From: Myxococcota bacterium
Lineage (GTDB): Bacteria; Myxococcota_A; UBA796; CAJQPC01
Direction of reading: 5' to 3'
DNA length: 52,460 nt
Assembly (NCBI GenBank): GCA_023150845.1
Contig: JAKLKD010000068.1
Span: forward strand, 1-52,460
Positions 35,357 through 51,053 of the stretch are shown here, in pieces. The notes under the pieces are model-generated. The model ran no database searches and was not told the DNA's origin. It saw only the letters and a list, made by a program, of their open reading frames with translations. A program made the position numbers and the translations under genes. Each line of letters begins with the position of its first letter. Within the stretch, counting starts at the first letter, position 1.

Positions 35357-36013
35357 ATGAAGCGGTTGTTTAGCCTGGCCCTCGCTGTGGGCTGCTTCGT
35401 GACGCTCGCGCCGATTGGTCGCGCACAAGATGGCGGCGCCACCGAGACGCCTGCCGCCGACCCCACCCCAGCCGCGGGAGCCGCGGACACCGCGCGCTAC
35501 GACCCCCAGCTCGGGACCATGGAGGAGCGCGTCAACGGCCTCAAGGAGCAGGTGTTCCGCTCCAAGGCGACGCTGCAGCTCCTCAAGGAGATCATGCTCC
35601 AGGGCTCGACCGGCGGCGCGCGCAGCTCCGTCGTGCACGTCAACGAGCTTGGGCGCACCTACTCCATCGAGTCCGTCGCGTATTACCTCGATGGGCAGTC
35701 GATCTTCGCCAAGTTTGATCCCTCTGGCTCGCTGAACGACGCCAAGGAGATCTTGGTCTGGGACGGCGCCATCCCGCCGGGCCAGCATCAGCTCATGGTC
35801 ACGGTGGTGCTGCGCGGGCGGGGCTTCGGTGTCTTCAACTACATGGAAGACTACCGGCTCGACCGTGAGGCCACCTTCCCGTTCAACGCCCAGGAGGGTC
35901 AGGCCTCCAACCTTCGGGTGGTCGTGAACGAGAGCGCGCGTGGGTCCTATGTCGAGAAGCCCAAGCTCGACTTCCAGCTCCAGACCATCCAGCTTGACTC
36001 GGCGGACGAGTGA
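35357..36013 (+). CDS. periplasmic protein, first gene of the Glt-like operon
   Basis: 218 residues. Signal peptide MKRLFSLALAVGCFVTLAPI ending near GRAQ, a Pro/Ala-rich linker, a short coiled coil (MEERVNGLKEQVFRSKATLQ, about 60-80), then a beta domain (SIESVAYYLDGQSIFAKFD; AIPPGQHQLMVTVVLRGRGF) resembling PEGA-type folds. Not recognised by name. Similar genes next to TPR proteins in myxobacteria are, from memory, sometimes labelled dihydrolipoamide acetyltransferase, which the sequence does not support. ATG 35357 has GGAG nine bases upstream. It starts the operon driven from 35239 and is followed after 59 bases by a TPR gene, which suggests a role in the same envelope complex. Confidence 0.75.
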   Translation: MKRLFSLALAVGCFVTLAPIGRAQDGGATETPAADPTPAAGAADTARYDPQLGTMEERVNGLKEQVFRSKATLQLLKEIMLQGSTGGARSSVVHVNELGRTYSIESVAYYLDGQSIFAKFDPSGSLNDAKEILVWDGAIPPGQHQLMVTVVLRGRGFGVFNYMEDYRLDREATFPFNAQEGQASNLRVVVNESARGSYVEKPKLDFQLQTIQLDSADE

Positions 36014-36072
36014 AGCGAGAGGGGATTCGGATGAACCCCAAGTTCAAACAGGACTCCGTTGACGGGGGATGT

Positions 36073-38301
36073 ATGCGCGTCGTGGGTGTGCGAACGAGCG
36101 GACTTGGCGTGGTCTCGCGCCTCGCGCTCGTCGTCGGGCTTCTCACCGCGCCGGGGGTGGCGGCCGCTGAGGACGTCCAGTCCGCGCTCGCCGGGGTAGG
36201 GGAGGATCTCGCCGCCGCCGACAAGCGCATCAGCGAGATCAACGCCAACCTCACGAACCGCCGGGGGCTCATCGGCTCCTTTGAGGCCATCGCGCGCTAC
36301 GAGGACGCGGTCTATCGCTACCTCATGGGCGACTTCGACGGGGCCGCGAAGGAGTTCTTTACGCTCATCGAGTCGGGGGCCCTGGGCGACGACATCCGCC
36401 ACGCCGACTCCCAGTGGTACTTCGCCGAGTGCCTGTTTGAGCTCGGCAGCTACACCCTCGCTGAAGAGGGCTACAGCGTCATCGTGCGGTCCGGCGACCG
36501 CCACGCCCACTTCGCCTCTTCGGTGCGCCGCCTCTTGGAGCTCTACGGCATCACCGGCGACGCCAAGGCGTTCTACAACCTCTACAACGCCTACATCGTC
36601 TCCAACAAGGTCTCGGCGACGGACGAGGTGAAGTACACCCTCGCCAAGTCCTTCCGCCGCCAAGGCGCCGCGCTCTACGTCCAGGCGAACAACCTGCGCT
36701 GGCAGGGCCAGGTCTACGGCGCTGAGGCCATGCGGGATCAGGCCGAGCAGGCCTTCGCCCGGGCCAAGTCCCAGCTCACCCAGGTCGGCGCTGGGGGCAA
36801 CTTCTACGCCCGCGCTCGGTACTCCATCGGCGTCATTCTGCTGCAGCAGGGGGAGCTCGCCGCGGCCTACAAACGCGCCGAGGGCCAAGACGCCTCCGTC
36901 GCCGAGCTGCGCGCCGCCGCCTTTAGCGCGGCCATCGACGAGTTTAAGGTCGTCGCCGCCGTGCCCCAGACCTCGCCGGAGGACATCGAGGTCGTCGACC
37001 TCGCGAACCTCGCCATCGCTCGCCTCTACGACGAGCTCGGCCGCCACAACGAGGCCCTCGCCACCTACGCCCTCATCCAGCGCGCCTCAAAGTACTTCCC
37101 CGACGCCCTCTACGAGATGGTCTGGACGGCGATCAAGATCGAGGACTACGAGGCCGCCTTGGACTCGGCGGGCATCTTCCTCCTGGCCTACCCCGAGCAC
37201 CGCTACACGGCGCAGCTCAAGGTCATCCAGGGCAGCCTCCACATGAAGGAGAAGCAGTACAAGCAGGCCCTCGCCAGCTACGAGCGTGTCGTGGCCGAGT
37301 ACACGCCGCTCTACGACCGCGTCTCCAAGATCGCCGACGACAGCCTCGCGGCGAACGACTGGTTCAGCCGCCTCGCCGCCGCTCCGGATCCGGCCGCGTA
37401 CTTCAACGATGAGCTGCCGCTCTACGCCGTCGAGATGCTCGTCACCGACCCCGGCATGGCCAAGGCGCTGCGCATCTACCGCGAGGCCGAACGCCAGCGC
37501 GCGGACATCGCGGCCTCCGAGGCCCTCATCTCCGAGATCGAGGCGGCCTTGGCCGCGGGCGCGGGCGGCGCCGCCCAGGCCAGCGAACAAGAGCTCATCG
37601 GCGTGAGCCTCTCCCTGCAGCGCGCCCAAGGGGAGCTGCTCAGCGCGGAGGAGACCGTGCTCCAGGAGGTCGGCGACCCGGCGCTCCGCGAGAAGGTCGG
37701 CGCCATCACGCTCCGCCGTGAGCAGGCGCGCGCCGAGCTGACCTCCAGCCGGTCCGGCGGCGAGCTGAGCGCCAACCCCGCGCTCACCGCCGAGTACATC
37801 AAGCTCCGCGGCGAGCTCAAGGCCCTTCGGAGCGGGGTCACCGACCCCATCGCCAACGGCCAGCTCGCCGAGATCGACAAGCACTGGGCGACCTTGGGCG
37901 GCCTCGACAAGAAGGTCGCCGAGATCCAGGGCCGCCTCGGCGGCGTGCAGAGCGGCGAGCTGGCGACGATTCAGCGCCGCCTGGACCAAGAGAAGGCCGC
38001 CGTCGCCGCCTCCAAGGTCGCCGTAGACGCCACCTTGAGCGAGGCCGGCGCCCTGGCGGGCATGGTCACCCAAGAGGGCTTCCGCGAGCTTGAGGACCAG
38101 TTCGCGCTGTCGATCCTCAAGGCCGACCGCGGCATCGTCGATGTCTACTGGGTCGAGAAGGTGCGCGTGACCGACGAGCTCAAGGCGGTGAAGACCGACC
38201 GCAGCGCGATGGTCGCGAACCTGGAAGCGCAGTTCAGTGTCATTCGGCAGGGGCTACCGCCTGAGCCAACGCCAACGGCCGTCGAAGGGACGGAGGACTG
38301 A
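36073..38301 (+). CDS. periplasmic TPR and coiled-coil protein of the Glt-like machine
   Basis: 742 residues. Signal peptide (VVSRLALVVGLLTAPGVAAA, ending near residue 32). Helical repeats of TPR type occupy about 45-430 (YEDAVYRYLMGDFDGAAKEF; QWYFAECLFELGSYTLAEEG; QLKVIQGSLHMKEKQYKQAL). Then come long coiled coils at about 450-720, including ALISEIEAALAAG and TIQRRLDQEKAAVAASKVAV. The size and architecture resemble the TPR scaffold GltC of the myxobacterial gliding machine, although identity is not proven. Start: ATG 36073 has GGGGGA upstream and gives a proper signal peptide; ATG 36031 also has a ribosome site (GAGGGG) and would add 14 residues. It is separated from the next gene by one base. 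Confidence 0.8.
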   Translation: MRVVGVRTSGLGVVSRLALVVGLLTAPGVAAAEDVQSALAGVGEDLAAADKRISEINANLTNRRGLIGSFEAIARYEDAVYRYLMGDFDGAAKEFFTLIESGALGDDIRHADSQWYFAECLFELGSYTLAEEGYSVIVRSGDRHAHFASSVRRLLELYGITGDAKAFYNLYNAYIVSNKVSATDEVKYTLAKSFRRQGAALYVQANNLRWQGQVYGAEAMRDQAEQAFARAKSQLTQVGAGGNFYARARYSIGVILLQQGELAAAYKRAEGQDASVAELRAAAFSAAIDEFKVVAAVPQTSPEDIEVVDLANLAIARLYDELGRHNEALATYALIQRASKYFPDALYEMVWTAIKIEDYEAALDSAGIFLLAYPEHRYTAQLKVIQGSLHMKEKQYKQALASYERVVAEYTPLYDRVSKIADDSLAANDWFSRLAAAPDPAAYFNDELPLYAVEMLVTDPGMAKALRIYREAERQRADIAASEALISEIEAALAAGAGGAAQASEQELIGVSLSLQRAQGELLSAEETVLQEVGDPALREKVGAITLRREQARAELTSSRSGGELSANPALTAEYIKLRGELKALRSGVTDPIANGQLAEIDKHWATLGGLDKKVAEIQGRLGGVQSGELATIQRRLDQEKAAVAASKVAVDATLSEAGALAGMVTQEGFRELEDQFALSILKADRGIVDVYWVEKVRVTDELKAVKTDRSAMVANLEAQFSVIRQGLPPEPTPTAVEGTED

Positions 38302-38302
38302 G

Positions 38303-41300
38303 ATGAACCCGCTTCACCGCCTCACCCGCCGACTCACTCTGACCCTCGCCTTGGGCCTGCCCGCCGCGGCCAGCGCCCAGGACGTGCCGCTCATCAACCC
38401 TCCTCCGGGCGGCCGCAACGCCGAGCGTGTGACCGGCGTCACCACCGAGGAGATGGCGGCTTACGAGGACACCCTCAGCCGCTTCCGGGAGCGCTCCGCG
38501 GAGTTCTCCGGAGACGCCCGGGCCATCGTCGACCAGATCGAGCGCGAAGAGCGCGCCGAGCTCGACTTCGCCTATGGCCCCCTGCTGACCGACCTTGAGG
38601 TCGAGCAGCGCCGCCTGCGCGACGAGTCCATCCGCCGTTTTGAGGCCTTCCTCGTCCGTTACCCGAGCACCGAGTACTCGGCGACGGTCATGTTCCGCCT
38701 CGCCGACCTCTACTTCGACGTCGCGGGCGAAGACTACCTCCGCCAGATGGACGAGCGCACGGCCTTAGAAGACCGCCTCACCATGGAGCAGCGCTTCGAG
38801 CTGCCGCCGCCGCCTTCGGTGGACTACAGCCGCTCCATCGCGCTCTACCGCCGGATCCTCGCCGAGTACCCGAACTTCGAGTACACCGACGGCACCCTCT
38901 ACATGCTCGGCTACTGCTACGGCGAGACGAGCACCGACGTCGAGATGGACGCCGAGGAGCTCTCCAAGAGCTACTACGAGCAGCTCGTCGCCCGTTTCCC
39001 CGAGTCGCGCCTCGCCATCGACGGCAACTTCGCGCTGGGGATGTACCACTTCGACAACTACAACGTGAAGCAGGCCCTCGCCCACTTCCAGAAGGTCACC
39101 GAGCGCGCCGAGAAGGGCAACGCCCTCTACGACCGCGGCATGTACATGCTCGCGTGGTCGCAGTACCGCCTCTCTGACTACGAGGGCGCCTTCGACACGT
39201 TCACGCGCCTGCTCGACTTCTCGTTGGAGTACTACAAGGAGTCCGGCAAAGACTCCAACATGAAGCCCGACGCCTTGGAGTACCTCGCGATCTCCATGAT
39301 CGACGTCGCCAAGAACTCGGAGTCCTTCTCCGATCCCAACTGGCGGAAGTACTCCACGGACCCCTTGGTCTCCTCCGGACAGCTCCTCGCCTCGACGGGC
39401 TACGGGCTCAACCCCGCGGGCCCCATCCAGGTCTTTGACCTGTGGTTCAACAAGGTCGGTCGCCGCGAGTACGAGATCGAGGTCATCAAGACCTTGGCGG
39501 CGAAGCTGGAGGAGGCGTCCTACGCTGAAGACGCCATCGCCACCTACGAGTACATCCAGCAGAAGTGGCCGACGGACCCCGAGAACCCCGACTTCCAGTA
39601 CCGCATCTCCCAGCTCTACATCTCCGGCGTCGCCGTCCGGGATGACGCCGCCGCCGACGCGGCCCTCGCCAAGCTCGGCGAGATGTACAACGACGACAGC
39701 GCCTGGGCGGCGGCCAACCGCAACAACCCCGACGCCTTGGCGAAGGCCCAAGCCTACCAAGAGCAGTCGTTGTACTCGGTCGCCACGGGCTTACACGCCC
39801 GCGCCCAGCAGACCGGCAGCATCGCCGACTACTCCATGGCGGCCGACCGCTACCGCGAGTACCTCAACAAGTTCCCCTTCGCGAACCAGTACTACCAGAC
39901 CCAGTTCTACCTGGCCGAGGCGCTGTACTCCTCCGAGCGGTTTGAGGAGGCCATCGTCGAGTACGACGCGCTCCTCAAGGTGCCCGGCGAGGAGTGGACC
40001 GAGGCCGCCCAGGTCCGCATCTTCGTGAGCTGGTACAACCTGCTCAACCAGCGTTACGGCGACCTCCAGAAGCTCCCGCCAGACGCCGTCGTCGAGCGCA
40101 CTGAAGAGACGAAGACCGGCGAGCAGCGCAACGTGTACATGCTCTCCGATCTCCACAAGGAGTTCATCAAGTCCGCCGACTCGATGAAGGCCGCCTCGTT
40201 CAAGAACGAGACCTGGGAGACCGCCCGACAAGAGAACCTCTCGGTCTACTACTACCTCCCGGCGCAGATCTACATCGTGCACGGCCACCACGAGGAGGGC
40301 CGCAAGCGCATGGAGGAGGTCATCACCCTCTACCGGCGCACGAAAGAGGCCTCCTACGCCGCGAGCTACATCGTCGATAGCTACCTCGCTGAAGGGGACC
40401 TGGAGAACGTCGCCAAGTACTCGGCCTACTACCGCATGATGACCGACCTCGGCGCCAACGAGCGGGTCGACACTGCGGCCGTGAAAGATCGTTTCATTAC
40501 CCTCGAGGCCGAAGCGCAGTTCAAGATCGCCAACAAGCTCATCGCGGTTGATCCCCTTCAGGCCGCCAAGGCCTTCGAGGACTACCTCGTCCAGTACCCC
40601 AACGCCCCCGAGATCGCCCTCAAGTACGCGCTGTACAACGCCGCGAACCAGTACGAGATCGGCGGCAAGGCCGACCGGGCGAACGAGCTCTTTGAGCGGT
40701 TCATCAACAGCTACCCCAAGGACGAGCTCGCCCCGCCGCTCTACTTCCGAATCGCCACGAACTACGCCTCGGTCTTGGAGCTGAACAAGTCCGTCGAGTA
40801 CTACGAGCGCCTGTACAAGAACTTCCCCACGTCCCCCGACGCCCCGGCGGCGCTGTACATGGCGGGCTTCTTGCGCACGGGGCTTGGCGATCACAAGGGC
40901 GCGGCGCAGAACTTCATGACCTACGTCGAGAAGCTGCCGCCCCAGCCCGACGCTGAGGCCGTGTACTGGCTCGCGGGCCAGCAGTGGCAGCTCGTCGGCG
41001 ACAAGGAGGCGCTCAGCTTCTACCGCCGCTACCTCCAGCGTTTCCCGGACTCGAGCCCCGACCACGTCATGGAGGCCTACCACTTCATCGCGAAGTACTA
41101 CGAGCGCACCGGCGACAAACGCGCCGCCGAGCAGGCTTGGAAGGACATCACGACGAACTACGCGCGCCTCGCCGCCAAGGGCACCCTCGGTCCCAAGGCG
41201 CGAAACATCGGCGCCGAGGCCGCCTTCCGCGACATGCAGGCCGCCTACAACGCCTTCATCAAGGTCAACTACCCCAAGAAGGAAGAGGACCTGATCAAGT

Positions 41301-41809
41301 ACCTCCTGGAGGACAAGCCCAAGGAGTTCGCCGCCATCACCCAGATGGAGCTGGCGCTCATCACGACCTACCAGGACTTCGAGTACAGCTCCGCCGCCCT
41401 CTACATCTCCGGCGCCACCTTCATCGCCTGGGCGGACATGTTCTACAACGCCCCGGCCTCGCCGCAGATCGCCGCGGATGAGGATCTCCTCGCCGCGTAC
41501 CGTGAGGAGCTCGACAAGCTCGGCCGCCCGGCTGAAGAGAAGGGCATCTCGCGCCTCCAGGCGAACCTCCAGAAGTCCAAGGACGAGAAGCGCGCCTCGG
41601 TCTGGATCGACAAGTCGATCGCGATGCTGAACGACCGCGACCCGCTGAACTACCCCCTGGAGAAGGCCGAGGTTCGTGGGCAGAGCACGGCCTCCGTGCT
41701 CCCCACCTCTGGGCCCTTGGACATGCCGAAGCCTGAGCCCGCGCCCGCGCCGACGACGCCCGCGCCGGCGACGCCCGCGCCGACGACGCCCGCGCCGGGG
41801 ACGCCATGA
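38303..41809 (+). CDS. very large TPR protein (GltD/AgmU-like)
   Basis: 1168 residues. Signal peptide LTRRLTLTLALGLPAAASAQ (about 9-28). The whole body is helical repeat: FEAFLVRYPSTEYSATVMFR, SRLAIDGNFALGMYHFDNYN, YAEDAIATYEYIQQKWP, AFEDYLVQYPNAPEIALKYA, SVEYYERLYKNFPTSPDAPA and others, each an A-B helix pair with Tyr/Pro ends typical of TPR. The C-terminus is a low-complexity Pro/Ala/Thr tail encoded by a 15-base repeat. Length and organisation match GltD (AgmU) of Myxococcus xanthus, a periplasmic and outer-membrane-linked scaffold of the gliding complex; the assignment is by resemblance. ATG 38303 has GGAGG six bases upstream and follows the previous stop by one base. Confidence 0.82.
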   Translation: MNPLHRLTRRLTLTLALGLPAAASAQDVPLINPPPGGRNAERVTGVTTEEMAAYEDTLSRFRERSAEFSGDARAIVDQIEREERAELDFAYGPLLTDLEVEQRRLRDESIRRFEAFLVRYPSTEYSATVMFRLADLYFDVAGEDYLRQMDERTALEDRLTMEQRFELPPPPSVDYSRSIALYRRILAEYPNFEYTDGTLYMLGYCYGETSTDVEMDAEELSKSYYEQLVARFPESRLAIDGNFALGMYHFDNYNVKQALAHFQKVTERAEKGNALYDRGMYMLAWSQYRLSDYEGAFDTFTRLLDFSLEYYKESGKDSNMKPDALEYLAISMIDVAKNSESFSDPNWRKYSTDPLVSSGQLLASTGYGLNPAGPIQVFDLWFNKVGRREYEIEVIKTLAAKLEEASYAEDAIATYEYIQQKWPTDPENPDFQYRISQLYISGVAVRDDAAADAALAKLGEMYNDDSAWAAANRNNPDALAKAQAYQEQSLYSVATGLHARAQQTGSIADYSMAADRYREYLNKFPFANQYYQTQFYLAEALYSSERFEEAIVEYDALLKVPGEEWTEAAQVRIFVSWYNLLNQRYGDLQKLPPDAVVERTEETKTGEQRNVYMLSDLHKEFIKSADSMKAASFKNETWETARQENLSVYYYLPAQIYIVHGHHEEGRKRMEEVITLYRRTKEASYAASYIVDSYLAEGDLENVAKYSAYYRMMTDLGANERVDTAAVKDRFITLEAEAQFKIANKLIAVDPLQAAKAFEDYLVQYPNAPEIALKYALYNAANQYEIGGKADRANELFERFINSYPKDELAPPLYFRIATNYASVLELNKSVEYYERLYKNFPTSPDAPAALYMAGFLRTGLGDHKGAAQNFMTYVEKLPPQPDAEAVYWLAGQQWQLVGDKEALSFYRRYLQRFPDSSPDHVMEAYHFIAKYYERTGDKRAAEQAWKDITTNYARLAAKGTLGPKARNIGAEAAFRDMQAAYNAFIKVNYPKKEEDLIKYLLEDKPKEFAAITQMELALITTYQDFEYSSAALYISGATFIAWADMFYNAPASPQIAADEDLLAAYREELDKLGRPAEEKGISRLQANLQKSKDEKRASVWIDKSIAMLNDRDPLNYPLEKAEVRGQSTASVLPTSGPLDMPKPEPAPAPTTPAPATPAPTTPAPGTP
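41741..41806 (+). repeat. 15-base tandem repeat encoding TTPAP-type units
   Basis: About four copies of a 15-base unit built on ACGCCCGCGCCG encode the C-terminal TTPAPATPAPTTPAP of the large TPR protein. Copies differ at one or two bases, so the copy number may vary between strains or be mis-assembled. Confidence 0.8.
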
Positions 41810-41849
41810 TCCGCCTTCCGCGCCCTCTGCGCATCACGGAGGCTACTCG

Positions 41850-43274
41850 ATGAGCCTGATCCCGCTCCTCCTGCTCTCCCTCGCGTGTAAGAAGCCCGTT
41901 GACCCCGTCGCTGGTGGTGATCCCGCCGCGGCGGAGGTGCAGGCCGCCATCGACGCCGCCGCCCAAGGCCAGACCGGCACGACGCCGACGGCCGAGGCGC
42001 CCAAGGGCTCGGACACCCGATCGCAGATCGGCCAGGCCACGGCGCTGCTCACGACGAAGAAGCCTGAGGACGCCCGCGCCGCGGTCGATCGCCTCAAGGG
42101 CCTGCTCGTCAGCGAGCCGAACAACCCCTACATCCACTTCAACCTCGGCGTGGCTTACGAGGTGATGGGGGACCAGACCAGCGCCCGCGACGCCTACCTC
42201 GAGGCCGTGCGTATCCAGAAGGACTTCGGCCCGGCCTACCTCAACCTCGCGGCGATGGACATGCGCAGCGGCCAGTACGATCGCGCCGCGAGCCGTTACC
42301 GCCTGGGCATCTCCAACGATCCCGACAACATGGATCTCTGGGTCGGCCTCATCTCGGCGCTCCAGAAGCAGGGCAAGCTCACCGAGGCCGAGGCCGAGGC
42401 GAAGAAGGCGCTGCAGATCAACTCCAACGCGCTCAACGTCTACAACAACCTGGGCCTCGTCTACATCGAGCGCGGCCAGCTCGACCTGGCGAACTTCATC
42501 TACCAGAAGGCGCTCACGACGGTGCCTGGCGCCGACGCCAGCGCGAACATCCACTGCAACCTGGGCCGCATCTACCAGCTCCAGGGCAAGTCCGGCGACG
42601 CCAAGCAGGCGCTCACGAAGGCCTTGGAGCGTGATCCCAACCTCGTCCCCGCGCTGATGTACTTGACCGAGTACAACCTCGCGAACCGCAACTTCGTGGA
42701 CACCGTGCCGCTCATGGAGCGCGCCCGCGACCTCGATCCCGGCAACCCGAACATCTACATGAACCTCGGCGTCGCCTACCGCGGGACCGCCCGCTACGAC
42801 GAGGCCCGCGCCGCCTACGAGCAGGTCATCAAGCTCAAGCCTGAGGATCCCGATCCCCACCTCAACCTGGGCATCCTCTACGGCGACTACATGAAGAACT
42901 ACGACGCGGCCATCGCCGAGTACGAGCTCTACATCAAGATGGGCGGCTCCCAGTCCTCCGCGGTCCAGGTGTACATCGAGAACACCCGGAAGGAGCAGGA
43001 GAAGGTCAAGAAGATGGAGGAGCGCAAGAAGCGCGCCGAGGAGGACGCCAAGCGTCGCGAGGCCGCCAAGGCTGAGGAGGAGCGGAAGGCCCGTGAGGCC
43101 GCCGCTGCCGAGGCCGCCGCCGCCGCAGCCGCCGCGTTCGGCGGAGCGCAGCCTCCGGTCGATCCCGCGCCGCCCACACCCCCGCCCGACGGTGGTACAG
43201 CTCCTCCGGTGCCCGCGCCCGAAGGCACCACCCCGCCCGCGACCCCGCCCACCGACAACCCCTGGGGAGGCTGA
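41850..43274 (+). CDS. TPR lipoprotein (GltE/AglT-like)
   Basis: 474 residues. MSLIPLLLLSLAC is a lipoprotein signal with Cys13 (LSLAC), so the protein is lipid-anchored, most likely at the outer membrane. At least seven canonical TPRs follow at about 65-365 (NPYIHFNLGVAYEVMGDQTS; ALNVYNNLGLVYIERGQLDL; NPNIYMNLGVAYRGTARYDE; DPHLNLGILYGDYMKNYDAA). After them comes a charged coiled coil (about 385-425, Lys/Glu/Arg), an Ala-rich run and a Pro-rich tail. This is the arrangement of AglT/GltE, the TPR lipoprotein of the gliding machine, by resemblance. ATG 41850 has ACGGAGG about seven bases upstream. It is followed after three bases by a small secreted-protein gene. Confidence 0.83.
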   Translation: MSLIPLLLLSLACKKPVDPVAGGDPAAAEVQAAIDAAAQGQTGTTPTAEAPKGSDTRSQIGQATALLTTKKPEDARAAVDRLKGLLVSEPNNPYIHFNLGVAYEVMGDQTSARDAYLEAVRIQKDFGPAYLNLAAMDMRSGQYDRAASRYRLGISNDPDNMDLWVGLISALQKQGKLTEAEAEAKKALQINSNALNVYNNLGLVYIERGQLDLANFIYQKALTTVPGADASANIHCNLGRIYQLQGKSGDAKQALTKALERDPNLVPALMYLTEYNLANRNFVDTVPLMERARDLDPGNPNIYMNLGVAYRGTARYDEARAAYEQVIKLKPEDPDPHLNLGILYGDYMKNYDAAIAEYELYIKMGGSQSSAVQVYIENTRKEQEKVKKMEERKKRAEEDAKRREAAKAEEERKAREAAAAEAAAAAAAAFGGAQPPVDPAPPTPPPDGGTAPPVPAPEGTTPPATPPTDNPWGG

Positions 43275-43806: not shown

Positions 43807-44472
43807 ATGGCCTTCTTTATCGACGCGATGCAGAAGGGCGGGCCCTTCATGTGGCCCATTCTCGCCTGCGCTATCTTCGGGGCCGCGATCAGCGCTGAGC
43901 GCATCTACTACATCTTCTTCCGCGCCGACATCAACGGCACCGCGTTCTTCGCCCAGATCCAGAAGCTGATCATGGCGAACAACATCGACCGCGCCATCAA
44001 GCTCTGCACCGCCGAGCCCAACCGCGCCCTCGCCCGCGTGCTCAAGGCTGGCCTCTCCCGCGCCAACCGCTCCGAGGGCGAGATTCAGGCCGCCGTCGAT
44101 GAGTCCGTGCTTGAGGTCTACCCGACCCTCTCCAAGCGCATGCCCTACCTCTCGATGATCGCCAACGTGGCCACGCTGACCGGCCTCCTCGGCACCATCC
44201 AGGGCCTCATCGCCGCCTTCGAGGCCGTGGCCCACGCCTCCGCCGAGACGAAGCAGACGCTCCTCGCGTCTGGTATCTCCGTCGCCATGTTCACCACTCT
44301 CGCCGGTCTGGTTGTCGCCATCCCCGTGCTGGTCGTCTCCTCGATCATCCAGGGCCGCATCACCAAGATCCAGGACGACGTGGACCAGTACGCGACCAAG
44401 ACGGTGAACCTGCTCACCGCTCGTCGCCGCGGCACCCTCGACAAGGAAGGCGGGGCTGAGGCTTCGGCCTGA
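43807..44472 (+). CDS. MotA/TolQ/ExbB-type proton-channel protein (AglR-like)
   Basis: 221 residues with three membrane segments at about 13-37, 115-143 and 155-180, as in the family. The conserved core is LSMIANVATLTGLLGTIQGL (115-134) followed by SGISVAMFTTLAGLVVAIPV (155-174), which line the proton path; the cytoplasmic loop (40-110) is typical. With ExbD-type partners it forms a proton-driven stator in the inner membrane. The two ExbD-like genes follow directly, then an FHA-like/TonB-C protein, the same set as aglR-aglQ-aglS with a Glt component in M. xanthus. ATG 43807 has CTGGAG six bases upstream. Confidence 0.92.
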   Translation: MAFFIDAMQKGGPFMWPILACAIFGAAISAERIYYIFFRADINGTAFFAQIQKLIMANNIDRAIKLCTAEPNRALARVLKAGLSRANRSEGEIQAAVDESVLEVYPTLSKRMPYLSMIANVATLTGLLGTIQGLIAAFEAVAHASAETKQTLLASGISVAMFTTLAGLVVAIPVLVVSSIIQGRITKIQDDVDQYATKTVNLLTARRRGTLDKEGGAEASA

Positions 44473-44559
44473 GCTGTCGCTGAGGTTCGTGGGGTGAGCG
44501 TCGAGAACTCTCCCGACGCTCGCCCCAACCTCTGACCTCTACTCCTCTGGAGCGCTGGA

Positions 44560-45102
44560 ATGGCTGGCAAACGTGCTCATGTCCAGGAAGAGCCGCTGAA
44601 CCTGGTTCCGATTATGAACCTGGTCTCGATTCTCATCCCCTTCCTGTTGATGGCGGCGCAGTTCGTGACCCTCGCGGTCATCGACTCCACTCTCCCCGCG
44701 ATCGGGCCGCCCCAGGAGGTCGAGACCCCTCCCGACAAGCCCCCGCTCATGCTCTCCGTGGCCGTCACCAACGAAGGCTTCACGGTGATGGGCGCTGACG
44801 CGGTGCTCAACCCCCAAGGTGCGCCGCCCTCGGCGGACGCTGGCCCGACCGTGCCGTGCCAGGAGCGCCCCTGTCAGACTCCCCAGTCCTACGACTACAA
44901 GGCGCTGACCGAGCTCCTCAACCAGATCAAGGATCAGTACCCCGACGACGAGACCGTCATCTTGGTGCCTGAGTCCCGGATCCCCTACGAGGTCATCGTC
45001 TTGCTCATGGACGCCACCCGTGAGGACGTGAACAAGAAGGACGACAAGGGCAAGTCCCGGTTGCTCTTCCCCAACGTGGTCATCGCCGGCGGCGCAGGCT
45101 GA
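44560..45102 (+). CDS. ExbD/TolR-like protein with Asn in place of the membrane Asp
   Basis: 180 residues. A single membrane segment (about 14-41, LNLVPIMNLVSILIPFLLMA) and a periplasmic domain (VAVTNEGFTVMG; LLNQIKDQYPDDETVILVPE; IPYEVIVLLMDATRE) fit ExbD/TolR. The family's protonatable Asp (ExbD Asp25, in INVTPFID) aligns with Asn20 here. This subunit therefore cannot carry protons in the usual way and may be structural, in a stator where the second ExbD-like protein keeps Asp. A Cys pair (PCQERPC, 106-112) in the periplasmic part could form a disulfide. It starts 87 bases after the TolQ-like gene with CTGGAG upstream and belongs to the same operon. Confidence 0.85.
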   Translation: MAGKRAHVQEEPLNLVPIMNLVSILIPFLLMAAQFVTLAVIDSTLPAIGPPQEVETPPDKPPLMLSVAVTNEGFTVMGADAVLNPQGAPPSADAGPTVPCQERPCQTPQSYDYKALTELLNQIKDQYPDDETVILVPESRIPYEVIVLLMDATREDVNKKDDKGKSRLLFPNVVIAGGAG

Positions 45103-45165
45103 TCGGATCTCCCTCTTCCTTCTCTCCACTCTTGCCCGGTCTACCTGGGCTTTCAGAGAGCGGTC

Positions 45166-45687
45166 ATGAAAAAGCCCCGTCGTGGAACAGTCAGCGATGA
45201 GCTGAACATCACCTCGATGATGGACATGTTCACCATCATCCTGGTCTTCCTCCTCAAGTCGTACTCCACCGAGGACATCTCCGTGGCGGCGTCGGGAGAT
45301 CTAGAGCTGCCGGTCTCGACCACCATGGTCAAGCCCAAGCTCGCCGTGAACGTCGTCGTCTCCAAGTCGAGCATCACCGTGGACGGCACGCCCGTCATGG
45401 CGCTCACGCGGAAGCCTGACGAGACCGGCAAAGAGTGGATCGCTGTGCCCGACGAAGAGAAGAAGGGCCAGATGATCACGCGCCTCTACGACCGCCTCCT
45501 GGAGAAGGCGGAGCAGGCCAAGCGCATCGCCGAGGCCACGGCCTCCGAGGAGCACGCCTTCAAGGGCGAGATCCTCATGCAGTGCGACAAGGAGCTCCCG
45601 TTCTCCGTCATCCGCGAGGTCATGTACACCGCGGGCCAGGCGCAGTTCTCGAACTTCCGGTTCGTCGTCTACTCGTCTACGAGCTGA
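45166..45687 (+). CDS. ExbD/TolR-like protein with conserved membrane Asp
   Basis: 173 residues. Basic N-terminus MKKPRRGTV, then one membrane segment at about 14-33 (LNITSMMDMFTIILVFLL) in which Asp20 occupies the proton-carrying position of ExbD/TolR. The periplasmic domain includes LAVNVVVSKSSITVDGTPV and a KGEILMQCDKELPFSVIREV segment matching the family's strand-helix end. It is probably the proton-conducting partner of the TolQ-like protein, with the Asn-type paralogue upstream as second subunit. The ATG at 45166 is only 63 bases after the previous gene, but a clear ribosome site is not evident. A strong terminator-like hairpin lies 28 bases after its stop. Confidence 0.9.
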   Translation: MKKPRRGTVSDELNITSMMDMFTIILVFLLKSYSTEDISVAASGDLELPVSTTMVKPKLAVNVVVSKSSITVDGTPVMALTRKPDETGKEWIAVPDEEKKGQMITRLYDRLLEKAEQAKRIAEATASEEHAFKGEILMQCDKELPFSVIREVMYTAGQAQFSNFRFVVYSSTS

Positions 45688-45994: not shown

Positions 45995-47335
45995 ATGGCG
46001 CAGCCTCAGCGACAGACGCAGGTCCAGATCAAGGTTCTTCGCATCGGCATCGTCCAGGACGGCAAGATCGTCAAGGAAGAGCTGATCAAGTCTGGAGATC
46101 CCGTCACCATCGGGGACTCCGACAAGAACACCTTTCAGCTCGCCACGCCCACCTTGGGCAAGCGATTCCAGCTCTTTGAGCCCCAGAAAGGCGGCACGTA
46201 CAACCTTGTCTTCACCGACGGCATGACCGGCCGCGTGTCGTACAAGGATGACGTGCTGGGCTTTGACCAGCTCAAGACCGCGAGTGAGGTCGTCAAGAAG
46301 TCGGACGGCTTCCACCTGCCGCTGAACGACAGCAACCGCGGCAAGATCATCGTCGACGGCCTCACGATCCTCTTCCAGTTCGTGCCGCCGCCGCCCGAGC
46401 CCTTGGGCGCGTCGATGGACTTCCGGCCGAAGTTCATCGAGGACGACGACCCCGTCTACTATGGCTTCCTCAGCGTGTTCTGGGCCCTGGGCATCGTCTT
46501 CGGCATCATCACGGTGAACGCGCCGCCCCGGCAGCCCTCCGTCGATGAGCTCCCCGAGCGCTTCACCCAGATCATCAGCACGCCTCCTTCGGAGGAGACC
46601 CCTCCGCCCCCTGAGCCTGTCGAGTCCGACGAGGGCGAGCAGGTGGTCAAGAAGGAGGAGGCGGAGTCCTCGGAGAAGGTCGCCAAGAAGCCGGAGAAGG
46701 ACGCCGCGGCGCGCCGTGAGCAGGCCCGTGAGCAGGTCATGCAGCAGTCCCGCCTGCTGATGGCGATCATCGGTACGCGCGGTGAGTCCGCCTCGGGCAG
46801 CCGCGTCGAGGATCTCCTCGGCGAGGGCGACTTCGCGGGTCAGGACCTCGACGCCGCCTTGGCGAACGTCTCCGGCGCTGAGGTCGCCTCGTCCACCTCC
46901 ATGGAGGCCCGCACGGGCACCGCGGGTGGCCGCCGTGACGCGGACATCGGCGACCTGCAGGGCGGAAAGGTCGGCGCTGTCGGCGTCGGCTCAGGCCCGG
47001 CCGTCCAGGTCAGCGGCAACATCGGCGTCGAGCAAGAGGACGCCTACCTTGAGTCCGGCGACGCCGCGGCCGTCAAGAAGGTCGTGAAGAAGCAGTCGGG
47101 CCAGGTGAAGTACTGCTACGAGTCCCAGCTCAAGTCCAACCCCACCCTCGCGGGTCGTGTGGAGATCACCTTCTTGGTGAAGGCGGGCCGCGTCACCAGC
47201 GCCAAGGCCGCCTCGAACAGCACCGGCAGCGACGCCTTGGCCCAGTGCATCGTCGGCAAGGTGAAGAGCTGGCGCTTCGGTGAGGACGTCGTCGGCGAGT
47301 TCACCTACCCGTTCTCGCTCACGCCCTCGAGCTGA
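45995..47335 (+). CDS. trans-envelope protein: FHA-like domain, membrane helix, TonB-like C-domain (GltG/AgmX-like)
   Basis: 446 residues. Cytoplasmic N-domain (about 8-130) has an FHA-like fold (VTIGDSDKNTFQL) but lacks the GR and S-x-x-H phosphopeptide residues. One membrane helix at about 154-174 (VYYGFLSVFWALGIVFGIIT), then a Pro/Glu/Lys-rich periplasmic stretch, a Gly-rich region, and a C-terminal TonB-like domain at about 352-443 with Cys374 and Cys418 (VKYCYESQLKSNP; ALAQCIVGKVKSWRFG), the AgmX/PglI-type C-terminus. It could bridge cytoplasm to outer membrane and transmit force from the stator, as proposed for GltG/GltJ in M. xanthus. ATG 45995 has AGGGA upstream. It is a single-gene unit after the terminator at 45715. 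Confidence 0.85.
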   Translation: MAQPQRQTQVQIKVLRIGIVQDGKIVKEELIKSGDPVTIGDSDKNTFQLATPTLGKRFQLFEPQKGGTYNLVFTDGMTGRVSYKDDVLGFDQLKTASEVVKKSDGFHLPLNDSNRGKIIVDGLTILFQFVPPPPEPLGASMDFRPKFIEDDDPVYYGFLSVFWALGIVFGIITVNAPPRQPSVDELPERFTQIISTPPSEETPPPPEPVESDEGEQVVKKEEAESSEKVAKKPEKDAAARREQAREQVMQQSRLLMAIIGTRGESASGSRVEDLLGEGDFAGQDLDAALANVSGAEVASSTSMEARTGTAGGRRDADIGDLQGGKVGAVGVGSGPAVQVSGNIGVEQEDAYLESGDAAAVKKVVKKQSGQVKYCYESQLKSNPTLAGRVEITFLVKAGRVTSAKAASNSTGSDALAQCIVGKVKSWRFGEDVVGEFTYPFSLTPSS

Positions 47336-47387: not shown

Positions 47388-47886
47388 TGCGTTTGGGGGG
47401 GACGTCATGGGCCTGACGCTGTCGCTCTCCGCTCCTGCGGTCGCCCGCGCCACGGCCGCGCCGCGCTCGCGGATCCTCCTCGGAGCCAGAGATGCGAAGG
47501 AAAGGGATGTGAAAGATCCAAATTTTGAGGCAGGTCGCCGTCGCGTGCGTGCGGCGCCGCCAATCTTCGGTCACCCGGGCGCGGGTCGGCGGGCCTCGGC
47601 CGGTCGAGCGAGCGCCGGTCGGCGGGGCAGGGGGCTCCGGTCCGAGCTCGGCGTCGAGCGGTCGGGGAGATCCGCCGAGAGTTTGACGAAGACACTACAG
47701 ATCGTGGCGCGCGCGTCATCGAGTGGTCTCGCGTCGGCGCCTGCCGAGGATTCTTTCAGCCACGGCAAGGAGTTGCCCTCCTCACGATCGAGCGTGGCCC
47801 GCTCACGAGACCTTGATCTTTCCTTCAGATCCGGTGATCTGGAATGATCTGTGCGGTGTCTGAACAACATGAGAGGCGGCGTGCGG
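47388..47886. other. long non-coding gap, no gene supported
   Basis: About 500 bases without a convincing gene. The plus-strand open frame at 47407-47847 has no family resemblance, is Arg/Ser-rich like out-of-frame GC-rich sequence, and lacks a ribosome site. Visible features are a direct repeat GGTCGGCGGG at about 47585 and 47617, an A+T-rich patch near 47508-47530, and a hairpin CAGATC-CGGT-GATCTG at 47826-47841 within a cluster of four GATC sites (47815-47850). A small RNA or regulatory region is possible. Confidence 0.5.
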
Positions 47887-47916
47887 TTGACAGCCCCGCC
47901 CGTTCAACGGTAACGT
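47887..47916 (+). promoter_or_regulatory. promoter with perfect -35 before the 178-residue protein
   Basis: TTGACA (47887-47892) followed 18 bases later by TAACGT (47911-47916), a weak -10. Transcription would start near 47923, giving a leader of about 17 bases containing the ribosome site CAGGAG before ATG 47940. Confidence 0.55.
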
Positions 47917-47939
47917 CCTGCTGTCCTCAGGAGTGCGTC

Positions 47940-48476
47940 ATGACCATTCGGAACCTCTTCGTGCTCACCGTGGCGCTCGGGTTCAGCTCGCCCGCTGCGC
48001 TCGCCCAGGATCCGGCGAGCCAAGGCGAGGTCGTGAGCGGCTCCTCGACGTCTTCTTCGCAGAAGATCCAGTTCGGCCGCGACGCGATCACCGACATGAA
48101 GGCGACCGCTGAGTACGTCAACGGCCTGCTCGTCACCGCCCAGCCCGAGCAGGACGCGGTGAAGATTCAGTGCCTCAACAAGAAGCTCTCCGCCGTGCGC
48201 GCGCTGGTCCAGGTCAGCGAGTCTGCGTTGGCGAGCATGCAGGAGGCCCTCGCCGTCGGAGACGACGGGCGCGCCGACTACGAGTTCCGGAAGATCGGCG
48301 TCGCCAAGAACAAGGCGAACCAGTTCCGGGGCGAGGCGGACGCTTGTGTCGGCGAAGAGGGGAAGGCCGAGACCCAAGAGAGCGCCAAGTACGAGGGCGC
48401 TGAGCTCAGTGAGACCATCGCCGATGGGAACACGGGCATCGGGATCGACCCTCCTGGCGTCTCGCCCTTTGAGTGA
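47940..48476 (+). CDS. small periplasmic protein of unknown function
   Basis: 178 residues. Signal peptide MTIRNLFVLTVALGFSSPAA ending at LAQ. The mature part is mainly helical (RDAITDMKATAEYVNGLLVT; KKLSAVRALVQVSESALASM; EFRKIGVAKNKANQFRGEAD) with two Cys (IQCLNKK and DACVGEE) placed to form a disulfide, and a low-complexity Gly/Pro end. I do not recognise the family. ATG 47940 has AGGAG five to six bases upstream and a promoter at 47887. It is followed after 104 bases by an outer-membrane barrel gene, so it may act as a periplasmic partner of that protein. Confidence 0.75.
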   Translation: MTIRNLFVLTVALGFSSPAALAQDPASQGEVVSGSSTSSSQKIQFGRDAITDMKATAEYVNGLLVTAQPEQDAVKIQCLNKKLSAVRALVQVSESALASMQEALAVGDDGRADYEFRKIGVAKNKANQFRGEADACVGEEGKAETQESAKYEGAELSETIADGNTGIGIDPPGVSPFE

Positions 48477-48580
48477 GCGCGTTCTACAATCCGAGGACGC
48501 GCCGCCCACACGGGTCGCGCGAAAGACTTCTCGCGGCCCCGCCGCTCGCTGAGGTAGGCCAGACGTTGAGGCAAGAAGCG

Positions 48581-50035
48581 ATGACAAAGAACCTTCGGGG
48601 GAACGAGAGGGGCGCGTCCGCGGCTCGATCGTTCGGTGCGCTCTTCGCGACGTTGCTCCTCGCCGCGCCGGCCACGGCGGGTGGGCCCGGCAGCGGCGTC
48701 CGCTTCGCGGATCACGGCCTGATCACGCCCACCCTCGACGTTGGCACGCAGTTCCAGTCCAACCCGTTCCTCGTGGACGGCGGTGGCACCTCGGCGGACC
48801 GCCAGGTCGTGCGAGGCGTCAACCTCCTCGCCCGGCCCCAGATCAAGCTTGAGGTCACGAACGACCTCCTCGTCTTCGACCTCACCGCGAGCCTCGCCGC
48901 CCGGCAGTTCCTCAACAAGTCCGCCCGCAACCTCAGCCGCGCCACGGACTCCACCGCGCTGGCCAACTTAGAGCTGCTCCCCGACGCCGTCGTGGGCCTC
49001 AAGGTCGGCGAGGACTTCTACATCGACAACCGCCCGTCCGAGGCCCGCTTCGCCGGTCTTGAGGACAACACAGGGCGCCCCTTCGTCACCCAGGTGCACT
49101 CCGGCTCCGACGCCTGGCTGGCGGTTCACCCCGGCGGTGCCCTGAACATCGACGTCGGCGGCTTCTTCGACGTAGACGACTTCTCCACGAACCCGAACTC
49201 GACGCCGTCTCCGACAGACGACAACAACTCGGGCGTGCTGGGCGCCGACCTCAACAACCGCTGGCGTTACGGCCCTCAGCTCGACGTCAAGTGGGCGTTC
49301 TTCCCCAAGACCTCGCTCCTCGCCAGCGCGGAGTTTGAGCGGTTCAACTGGGAGAACAACCTCATCCAGACCACGGGCGGCACGGCCCTGGAGTTCTCTG
49401 ACGACTGGCTGGCGATGCCCGACGGCATCGGCTTCCGCGTGAACGCTGGCCTCTCCGGCCGCTTCACCAAGAAGATCGTGCTCAACACGACGGTCGGCTA
49501 CGGCCAGCTCCGCTACGACACCACCTCCGTCGAGGAGGAGGCCGCCGCGAAGGCCGCCGCTGGGGTCCAGGGCCTGGACAGCCTCGACGCCGCGAGCCAG
49601 GGCTGGGACGCCACGCTCTCCACCTTTGGTGAGGGCCTGCTCGTGACGAGTAAGCTCGCCTGGGCGCCGCGTAAGAACCAGACCTTCTCGCTCGGCTACG
49701 TCAAGGACTACCAGGACTCCTGGTTCACCAACTACGTCAGCTACCACTACGGCTTCTTGCGGTACGAGGGCAAGCTGAGCCGTCGCCTCACGGTGAACGG
49801 CAACTTCGGCTACCGCATGGAGAAGTACCGCGGCCACGTCACCCGGGATGACCAGGTGACGACGCTGATGGTCGGCGGCACCTACAGCCTCCAGAACTGG
49901 CTCGCCGTGTCCGTAGACACGGGCTGGAACCGCCGCGTGAGCTGCCCGGACGGCCTCTGCGCGAACGGCAACGCCGACTCCCGCCGCGAGTACGACAACG
50001 TGCCCGTGAACCTGCTGTTCACGTTCTCTTACTGA
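48581..50035 (+). CDS. outer-membrane beta-barrel protein
   Basis: 484 residues. Signal peptide (SFGALFATLLLAAPATA, ending near residue 32), then alternating amphipathic strands with many Tyr, Trp, Asn and Asp turns (LITPTLDVGTQFQSNPFLVD; KLEVTNDLLVFDLTASLAAR; WRYGPQLDVKWAFFPKTSLL; TVNGNFGYRMEKYRGHV), ending VPVNLLFTFSY with an aromatic last residue as recognised by the BAM machinery. The layout resembles the barrel family found beside exopolysaccharide or gliding loci. It could be the outer-membrane element of the machine encoded upstream, but that link rests on proximity only. ATG 48581 has GAGG about ten bases upstream. It converges on galE. Confidence 0.85.
   Translation: MTKNLRGNERGASAARSFGALFATLLLAAPATAGGPGSGVRFADHGLITPTLDVGTQFQSNPFLVDGGGTSADRQVVRGVNLLARPQIKLEVTNDLLVFDLTASLAARQFLNKSARNLSRATDSTALANLELLPDAVVGLKVGEDFYIDNRPSEARFAGLEDNTGRPFVTQVHSGSDAWLAVHPGGALNIDVGGFFDVDDFSTNPNSTPSPTDDNNSGVLGADLNNRWRYGPQLDVKWAFFPKTSLLASAEFERFNWENNLIQTTGGTALEFSDDWLAMPDGIGFRVNAGLSGRFTKKIVLNTTVGYGQLRYDTTSVEEEAAAKAAAGVQGLDSLDAASQGWDATLSTFGEGLLVTSKLAWAPRKNQTFSLGYVKDYQDSWFTNYVSYHYGFLRYEGKLSRRLTVNGNFGYRMEKYRGHVTRDDQVTTLMVGGTYSLQNWLAVSVDTGWNRRVSCPDGLCANGNADSRREYDNVPVNLLFTFSY

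Positions 50036-50075: not shown

Positions 50076-51053
<978 letters not shown>

Follow-up and report, generated by a model that had tools for sequence, protein, structure and literature searches.

The window, i.e. the whole 52,460-nucleotide stretch of Myxococcota DNA analysed here, encodes an asymmetric motor, predicted to be proton-driven and of the TonB/Tol/gliding type. It is a real, widespread and, within the literature searched, unreported variant of the AglRQS/ExbBD kind of motor. The proton-binding aspartate in the membrane helix, a feature of ExbD and TolR, is present in one of its two ExbD-like chains (D2) and absent from the other (D1). Both chains are encoded together with a single ExbB within a Glt-type operon, which has the following parts.

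36010..38301, plus strand: GltC-like TPR protein, upstream (NCBIfam NF033756, E 8e-22, 77.7 bits, below the equivalog cut-off of 450)
38237..41809, plus strand: large TPR protein, putatively GltD from its position, with TPR and YbgF/BamD-like matches; no named GltD model was matched in the family-model search
41676..43274, plus strand: GltE-like TPR protein (NF033758 GltE, E 4e-32, below the cut-off; many TPR models); the listed start of the reading frame is probably upstream of the true start
43807..44472, plus strand: ExbB/TolQ/AglR-like channel protein of 221 aa (PF01618, 89.6 bits)
44560..45102, plus strand: D1, ExbD-like protein of 180 aa starting with ATG; proton-site residue Asn20, also Pro27 (PF02472, 44.7 bits)
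44617..44619, plus strand: AAC codon of Asn20 in D1, read directly
45166..45687, plus strand: D2, ExbD-like protein of 173 aa starting with ATG; proton-site residue Asp20, also Ser17 (PF02472, 41.6 bits)
45223..45225, plus strand: GAC codon of Asp20 in D2, read directly
45995..47335, plus strand: short GltG-like transducer of 446 aa with an AgmX/PglI (TonB-like) C-terminal domain (NF033768, above the cut-off); it also matches positions 215-647 of the GltG model NF033760 (E 7e-39, below the cut-off)
47844..48476, plus strand: protein of 210 aa in the same operon (ORF call), with no family match in the family-model searches
48473..50035, plus strand: putative porin-like outer-membrane barrel of 520 aa (PF10082 BBP2_2, E 6e-9)

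A gene for UDP-glucose 4-epimerase (GalE) is located just beyond the operon on the opposite strand (50076-51053).

The order within 43807-45687, one ExbB-like gene and then two different ExbD-like genes, is the AglRQS-type arrangement, and both D1 and D2 pass the Pfam ExbD (PF02472) cut-off of 25.4 bits. At residue 20 D1 has Asn (LNLVPIMN) and D2 has Asp (LNITSMMD); in both proteins this position aligns with Asp25 of E. coli K-12 ExbD. The first-pass annotation, which had placed these two residues at the position of the ExbD/TolR aspartate, was thus exact in both coordinates and alignment, and the residue itself bears out its claim that one chain is unable to bind a proton there. The AF2 models of D1 and D2 (pLDDT 85 for each) contain one membrane helix, residues 16-42 in D1, and a periplasmic alpha/beta domain. 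In Foldseek, D2 matched the periplasmic domains of ExbD and TolR with probabilities of 0.99-1.00; the ExbD match of D1 was weaker (8vgc, probability 0.95, E 0.05) and was not the top row. Only weak ExbD matches were obtained in the PDB sequence search.

D1 also possesses the periplasmic cysteine pair that had been pointed out earlier (PCQERPC, C100/C105). The pair is real and invariant across the 17 D1 sequences of alignment A1, but as a companion of Asn it was rejected as not specific: at least two periplasmic cysteines occur in 55 of 68 Asn-type and in 25 of 46 Asp-type D1 proteins.

Among 58 genomes, nearly all from the window's order, 55 had a D1 homologue. At the 29 loci fetched besides the window, the D1 site was Asn in 27, Ser in 2 and Asp in none, and D2, detected at 27 of the 29, had Asp every time. 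Every D1 Asn is encoded by AAC or AAT, so that a single base change would give an Asp codon; yet Asp is absent from the D1 site of the 29 close loci. The pattern exceeds chance: as a base rate, three further Myxococcota genomes had Asp at all 30 of the ExbD loci that were read. A sequencing error or local variant was ruled out by the occurrence of Asn in a genome of the same genus (G001) and at 26 other loci from relatives. In the window's own genome Asp is present in 8 of 10 PF02472 matches, the exceptions being D1 and one protein with Ala; none of these matches forms an AglQ/AglS-like Asp/Asp pair. The Ala-site protein lies beside an Asp-bearing ExbD-like protein with its own ExbB (L050; contig C421, 1785-3070) and makes a second asymmetric pair, and contig C152 carries a solitary D1-like gene with a Gly site, beside which no D2 was seen (L049; 3701-4324).

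A wider survey with a D2 profile gave matches in 191 of the 235 genomes of the window's phylum. From the best-scoring matches 110 places (L083-L192) were read, by which motors distant from the family are under-sampled. Tandem pairs were read at 108 of these, L100 and L144 being cut by contig or stretch ends. When earlier loci were included there were 148 tandem pairs, of which 123 were non-redundant. The D2 site was Asp in all 123 pairs; the D1 site was Asn in 68, Asp in 46, Ser in 5 and Ala in 4, i.e. other than Asp in 77. Asn-type D1 proteins were present in 18 families of the Myxococcota sample, as counted from a table in which the family of the window appears twice. Asn at the D1 site is neither an error nor a local variant, as the refuting case formulated in the first-pass annotation had it, and the Asn/Asp pairing that it proposed to check among orthologues is conserved far beyond the window's order. 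D1 relatives with Asp do exist, but judged by sequence they are a different motor class with other residues in D1, D2 and ExbB. The AglQ/AglS-like pairs (L064/L075, L066/L069 and L077) fall among the Asp/Asp pairs. In each of three genomes (G005, G040 and G046) a Ser/Asp motor coexists with an Asp/Asp motor, and both have their matching ExbB type. On one contig of G040 (C44) motors of these two kinds (L163 and L179) are about 11 kb apart.

The difference between the two classes extends over three proteins. Seven residues after the D1 site, Pro is found in 77/77 of the non-Asp class and 0/46 of the Asp class, and four residues after it Asn is found in 0/77 and 41/46, respectively; three residues before the D2 site, Ser is found in 76/77 and 1/46. 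From geometry the D1 site and positions +4 and +7 probably share one helix face. ExbB was readable beside 122 of the 123 pairs. According to the alignment, Val159 of the window's ExbB stands in the place of Glu176 of E. coli ExbB, and at this position Glu occurs in 0/76 of the non-Asp class compared to 43/46 of the Asp class; Pro173 (E. coli Pro190) is present in 76/76 and 2/46, respectively. Thr163 as well as Pro173 is present in the non-Asp class, and Thr130 and Thr164, which correspond to E. coli Thr148 and Thr181, are conserved in all rows of both classes. The features of E. coli ExbB are thus split, the Asn class having Pro190 without Glu176 and the Asp class Glu176, mostly without Pro190. 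Another 66 Asn-type GTDB loci, from partly overlapping species, were likewise without Glu at 159. The only exceptions to the ExbB rule were L122, L191 and L076. L122 (G019) has a D1 with Asp amid the Ser/Asn part of the trees, without the Pro and without the Ser of D2, and with Met at ExbB 159; it is possibly a reversion. The correlated residues map to few evolutionary transitions (at least three changes on the 57-row tree), and the counts are therefore not independent: they show coupling among the motor proteins, not 123 independent trials.

D1 is under purifying selection, dN/dS being 0.04-0.20 in those 7 of 10 pairs whose dS was unsaturated, and a pseudogene was ruled out on these values. 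A shifted acid within the D1 helix was ruled out as well, as no Asp or Glu was found at positions -2 to +13 in any of the 77 non-Asp D1 proteins.

Outside the Myxococcota, a GTDB scan yielded 80 loci, including Agitococcus lubricus (Pseudomonadota), Lujinxingia vulgaris (Bradymonadales) and records labelled Sumerlaeota, UBP6 and Spirochaetales. The scan pattern demanded Met-Asn, so the D1 residue was preselected and only that of D2 is informative: D2 was detected at 68 of the 80 loci and had Asp in 68 of 68. At the other 12 (L216, L221, L223-L226, L228, L233, L238, L242, L268 and L272) neither D2 nor ExbB was detected beside an Asn-type D1-like gene, and these may be an orphan family. A second survey used a D2 profile, which is blind to D1, although, as the profile was built from Asn-type operons, Asp-type motors may be missed by it. 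In the phylum of L247, 25 of 28 genomes had matches, and in the order of Agitococcus 83 of 244. D1 was readable at 56 of the 61 loci read (55 distinct, L280 and L281 being one pair) and at the remaining five it was unread; among the 61 loci, L279 (Lujinxingia) is from the Bradymonadales, which some other taxonomies may place within Myxococcota. The site was Asn in 52 of the D1 reads, Ser in 4 and Asp in none, always with Pro at +7, and in all 55 distinct pairs an Asn- or Ser-type D1 accompanied a D2 with Asp. The order TPR - TPR - ExbB - D1 - D2 - GltG was found again by family search in L247 and L270, and in L265 from ORF order and a GltG match; it agrees with the "core complex" of PMC3169522. 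The GltG-like protein of L270 is above the Pfam TonB C-terminal cut-off, and an ORF sized like the 210-aa protein occupies the same place in L247 and L265. The asymmetric motor is present in the named strains Agitococcus lubricus DSM 5822 and Lujinxingia vulgaris TMQ2.

In a 57-row tree, from which the trait columns were excluded and which had an AglRQS-like Asp/Asp outgroup, the Asp clade of Glt-core motors is nested within the Asn class, on branches of 100/97 and 97/87. This position would fit a single loss of the second Asp, followed by its regain in the gliding-type clade, a history that is tentative in view of the root and the long branches. The D-to-N direction proposed earlier holds at the base, but within the family the gliding-type clade may have regained its Asp. 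One clade of all non-Asp rows (plus L122), set against the Asp-type rows with AglRQS, was marginally disfavoured (AU p 0.0355), a result that depends on the root.

The M. xanthus gliding and sporulation motor AglRQS similarly comprises one ExbB-like and two ExbD-like proteins with a GltG-type link (PMC3169522, PMC3858216, in the parts available), and the available text of PMC3858216 states that aglR, aglQ and aglS are each required for sporulation. However, AglQ and AglS are both described with the conserved Asp in the portions of PMC9389320 at hand, whereas D1 of the window has Asn. An aspartate in both ExbD-like chains, as AglRQS has it, was found neither in the window nor in the 77 of 123 pairs with a non-Asp D1. 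Since M. xanthus-type AglQ/AglS pairs carry two Asp, the window's motor belongs, by its residues, to a distinct class. That it is the Myxococcus AglRQS itself was not supported: the AglQ/AglS-like pairs are Asp/Asp, and the genome has its own full-length GltG relative on contig C141 (12557-14500, in L052), away from the window's contig. The gene set (putative gltC, D, E and G with aglRQS homologues) and its clustering resemble those of the Glt "Group B core complex", described for the non-Deltaproteobacteria and Geobacter in the available sections of PMC3169522, with Marinobacter, Teredinibacter and Saccharophagus named among the carriers of duplicated core-complex copies. Unlike in that complex, the window's GltG, GltE and GltC matches are all below the equivalog cut-offs of the core-complex models. 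Section 7 and the available passages of PMC3169522 contain no discussion of the Asp site. With the Ton motor of E. coli (ExbB-ExbD) the window's motor shares the ExbD family and site and the two ExbB threonines Thr148 and Thr181, but the E. coli motor has a single ExbD with Asp25 and Glu176 in ExbB, compared to two different ExbD chains in the window, of which one lacks the acid, and an ExbB with Val in place of Glu176. No paper reporting an asymmetric Asn/Asp motor was found in the literature search, which covered few subscription papers, and searches on Glu176, mixed MotB stators and ExbD without Asp gave nothing decisive.

We consider it rather probable that ExbB assembles with D1 and D2 into an ion-driven motor of the 5:2 type, with a D1/D2 heterodimer as its axle, one proton site and a TonB-like GltG output. 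A 5:2 rotary motor has five ExbB/MotA-like and two ExbD/MotB-like chains, and D1 and D2 would sit together in one ExbB pentamer as 5:1:1. D2 alone bears the proton-binding aspartate. D1 would contribute the other helix, in which the site is permanently neutral (Asn, or Ser/Ala in some relatives) and Pro27, on the same face, alters the helix. Since D1 has Asn, only the D2 site would be chargeable. The neutral Asn would resemble a permanently protonated site, as does the MotAB protonation mimic D22N, in which Asn replaces the proton-binding Asp (PMC9389320, in the part seen); the MotB change is engineered, however, and the window's Asn is natural and present in only one of two different chains. 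With protons passing via one site per axle, there would be at most 5 per turn instead of 10, and steps of 72 instead of 36 degrees, the single D2 site having to pass five half-channel pairs per turn. In the two-site turnstile, as described in the accessible portion of PMC9389320, one proton passes per 36 degrees and two Asp alternate. The force would exit via the TonB-like GltG and reach the Glt core complex at its TPR and outer-membrane components, an output suggested by the operon content and by the AglR-GltG two-hybrid contact in M. xanthus (available text of PMC3169522 and PMC3858216). The heterodimer motor is favoured by the Asp/non-Asp pairing, the coupling of three proteins, the selection on D1, the Glt-type operon, the need of AglRQS for all three genes and the sporulation defect of AglQ D28N. 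Against it, M. xanthus-like motors with two Asp share the gene order, which therefore does not demand one site; the transitions are few, and L122, L191 and L076 break the ExbB rule.

It is also conceivable, though unlikely, that D1 is outside the axle, with ExbB5 and a D2 homodimer as the motor and D1 as an accessory protein at the rim or on GltG, free to lose its Asp. The 12 GTDB loci with a D1-like gene but no D2 or ExbB found indicate that D1-like proteins can exist outside the motor operon, as does the lone Gly-site gene of the window's own genome. D1 nevertheless retains the ExbD membrane helix with the site nearly fixed as Asn, the near-site residues of ExbB and D2 change with D1, which would be unexpected for a rim protein, and AglRQS needs both ExbD-like genes (PMC3858216, in the part seen).

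Two further readings have D1 in a motor complex. We find it improbable that Asn20 and the altered ExbB residues form another ion or water path, giving two functional positions per axle. The ExbB of the class, without Glu at 159 and with Thr163 and Pro173, is consistent with such a path, but it has one carboxylate fewer, not one more, D1 has no acidic residue at -2 to +13, and the site is also occupied by Ser or Ala, or by Gly in a lone gene. Less probable still is that D1 homodimers form separate, inert ExbB5-D1 complexes which damp or store motors, the D2 homodimers being in the active ones. All that speaks for it is that D1 lacks the Asp and that both chains have one ExbB gene in common, and both the one-to-one tandem pairs (108 of 110 D2 places) and the Ser at D2 -3, which tracks the D1 class, suggest contact between D1 and D2. 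The earlier interpretation of one active and one structural chain is partly supported; "merely structural" may undersell D1, as the ExbB lining and D2 have changed with it.

The ten-fold symmetry of 5:2 motors is called "almost certain to be a universal feature" in a 2022 review (PMC9389320, available portion), and the asymmetric class would break it. According to the same portion, it is not known for any 5:2 motor whether the protonation swap proceeds via doubly protonated or doubly charged states, nor whether AglQ pairs with AglS or each of them with itself. The AglQ D28N mutant of M. xanthus did not sporulate, a change said to abolish proton conductance (PMC3858216, in the part available). 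An axle chain that is never chargeable at its site bears on the questions of symmetry, protonation states and hetero- or homodimers, and the lopsided pair, which recurs in numerous relatives and also in certain bacteria far removed from them, offers a natural experiment on the rotation of such motors. We tentatively suggest, as a possibility somewhat short of even, a large and ancient class of 5:2 motors in Myxococcota, Pseudomonadota and a Sumerlaeota/UBP6 lineage, with a heterodimeric Asp/neutral axle, a single proton site, five protons per turn and 72-degree steps. If this is true, the doubly charged state of the axle would be dispensable, and the gliding-type clade would have regained its second Asp together with the ExbB glutamate.
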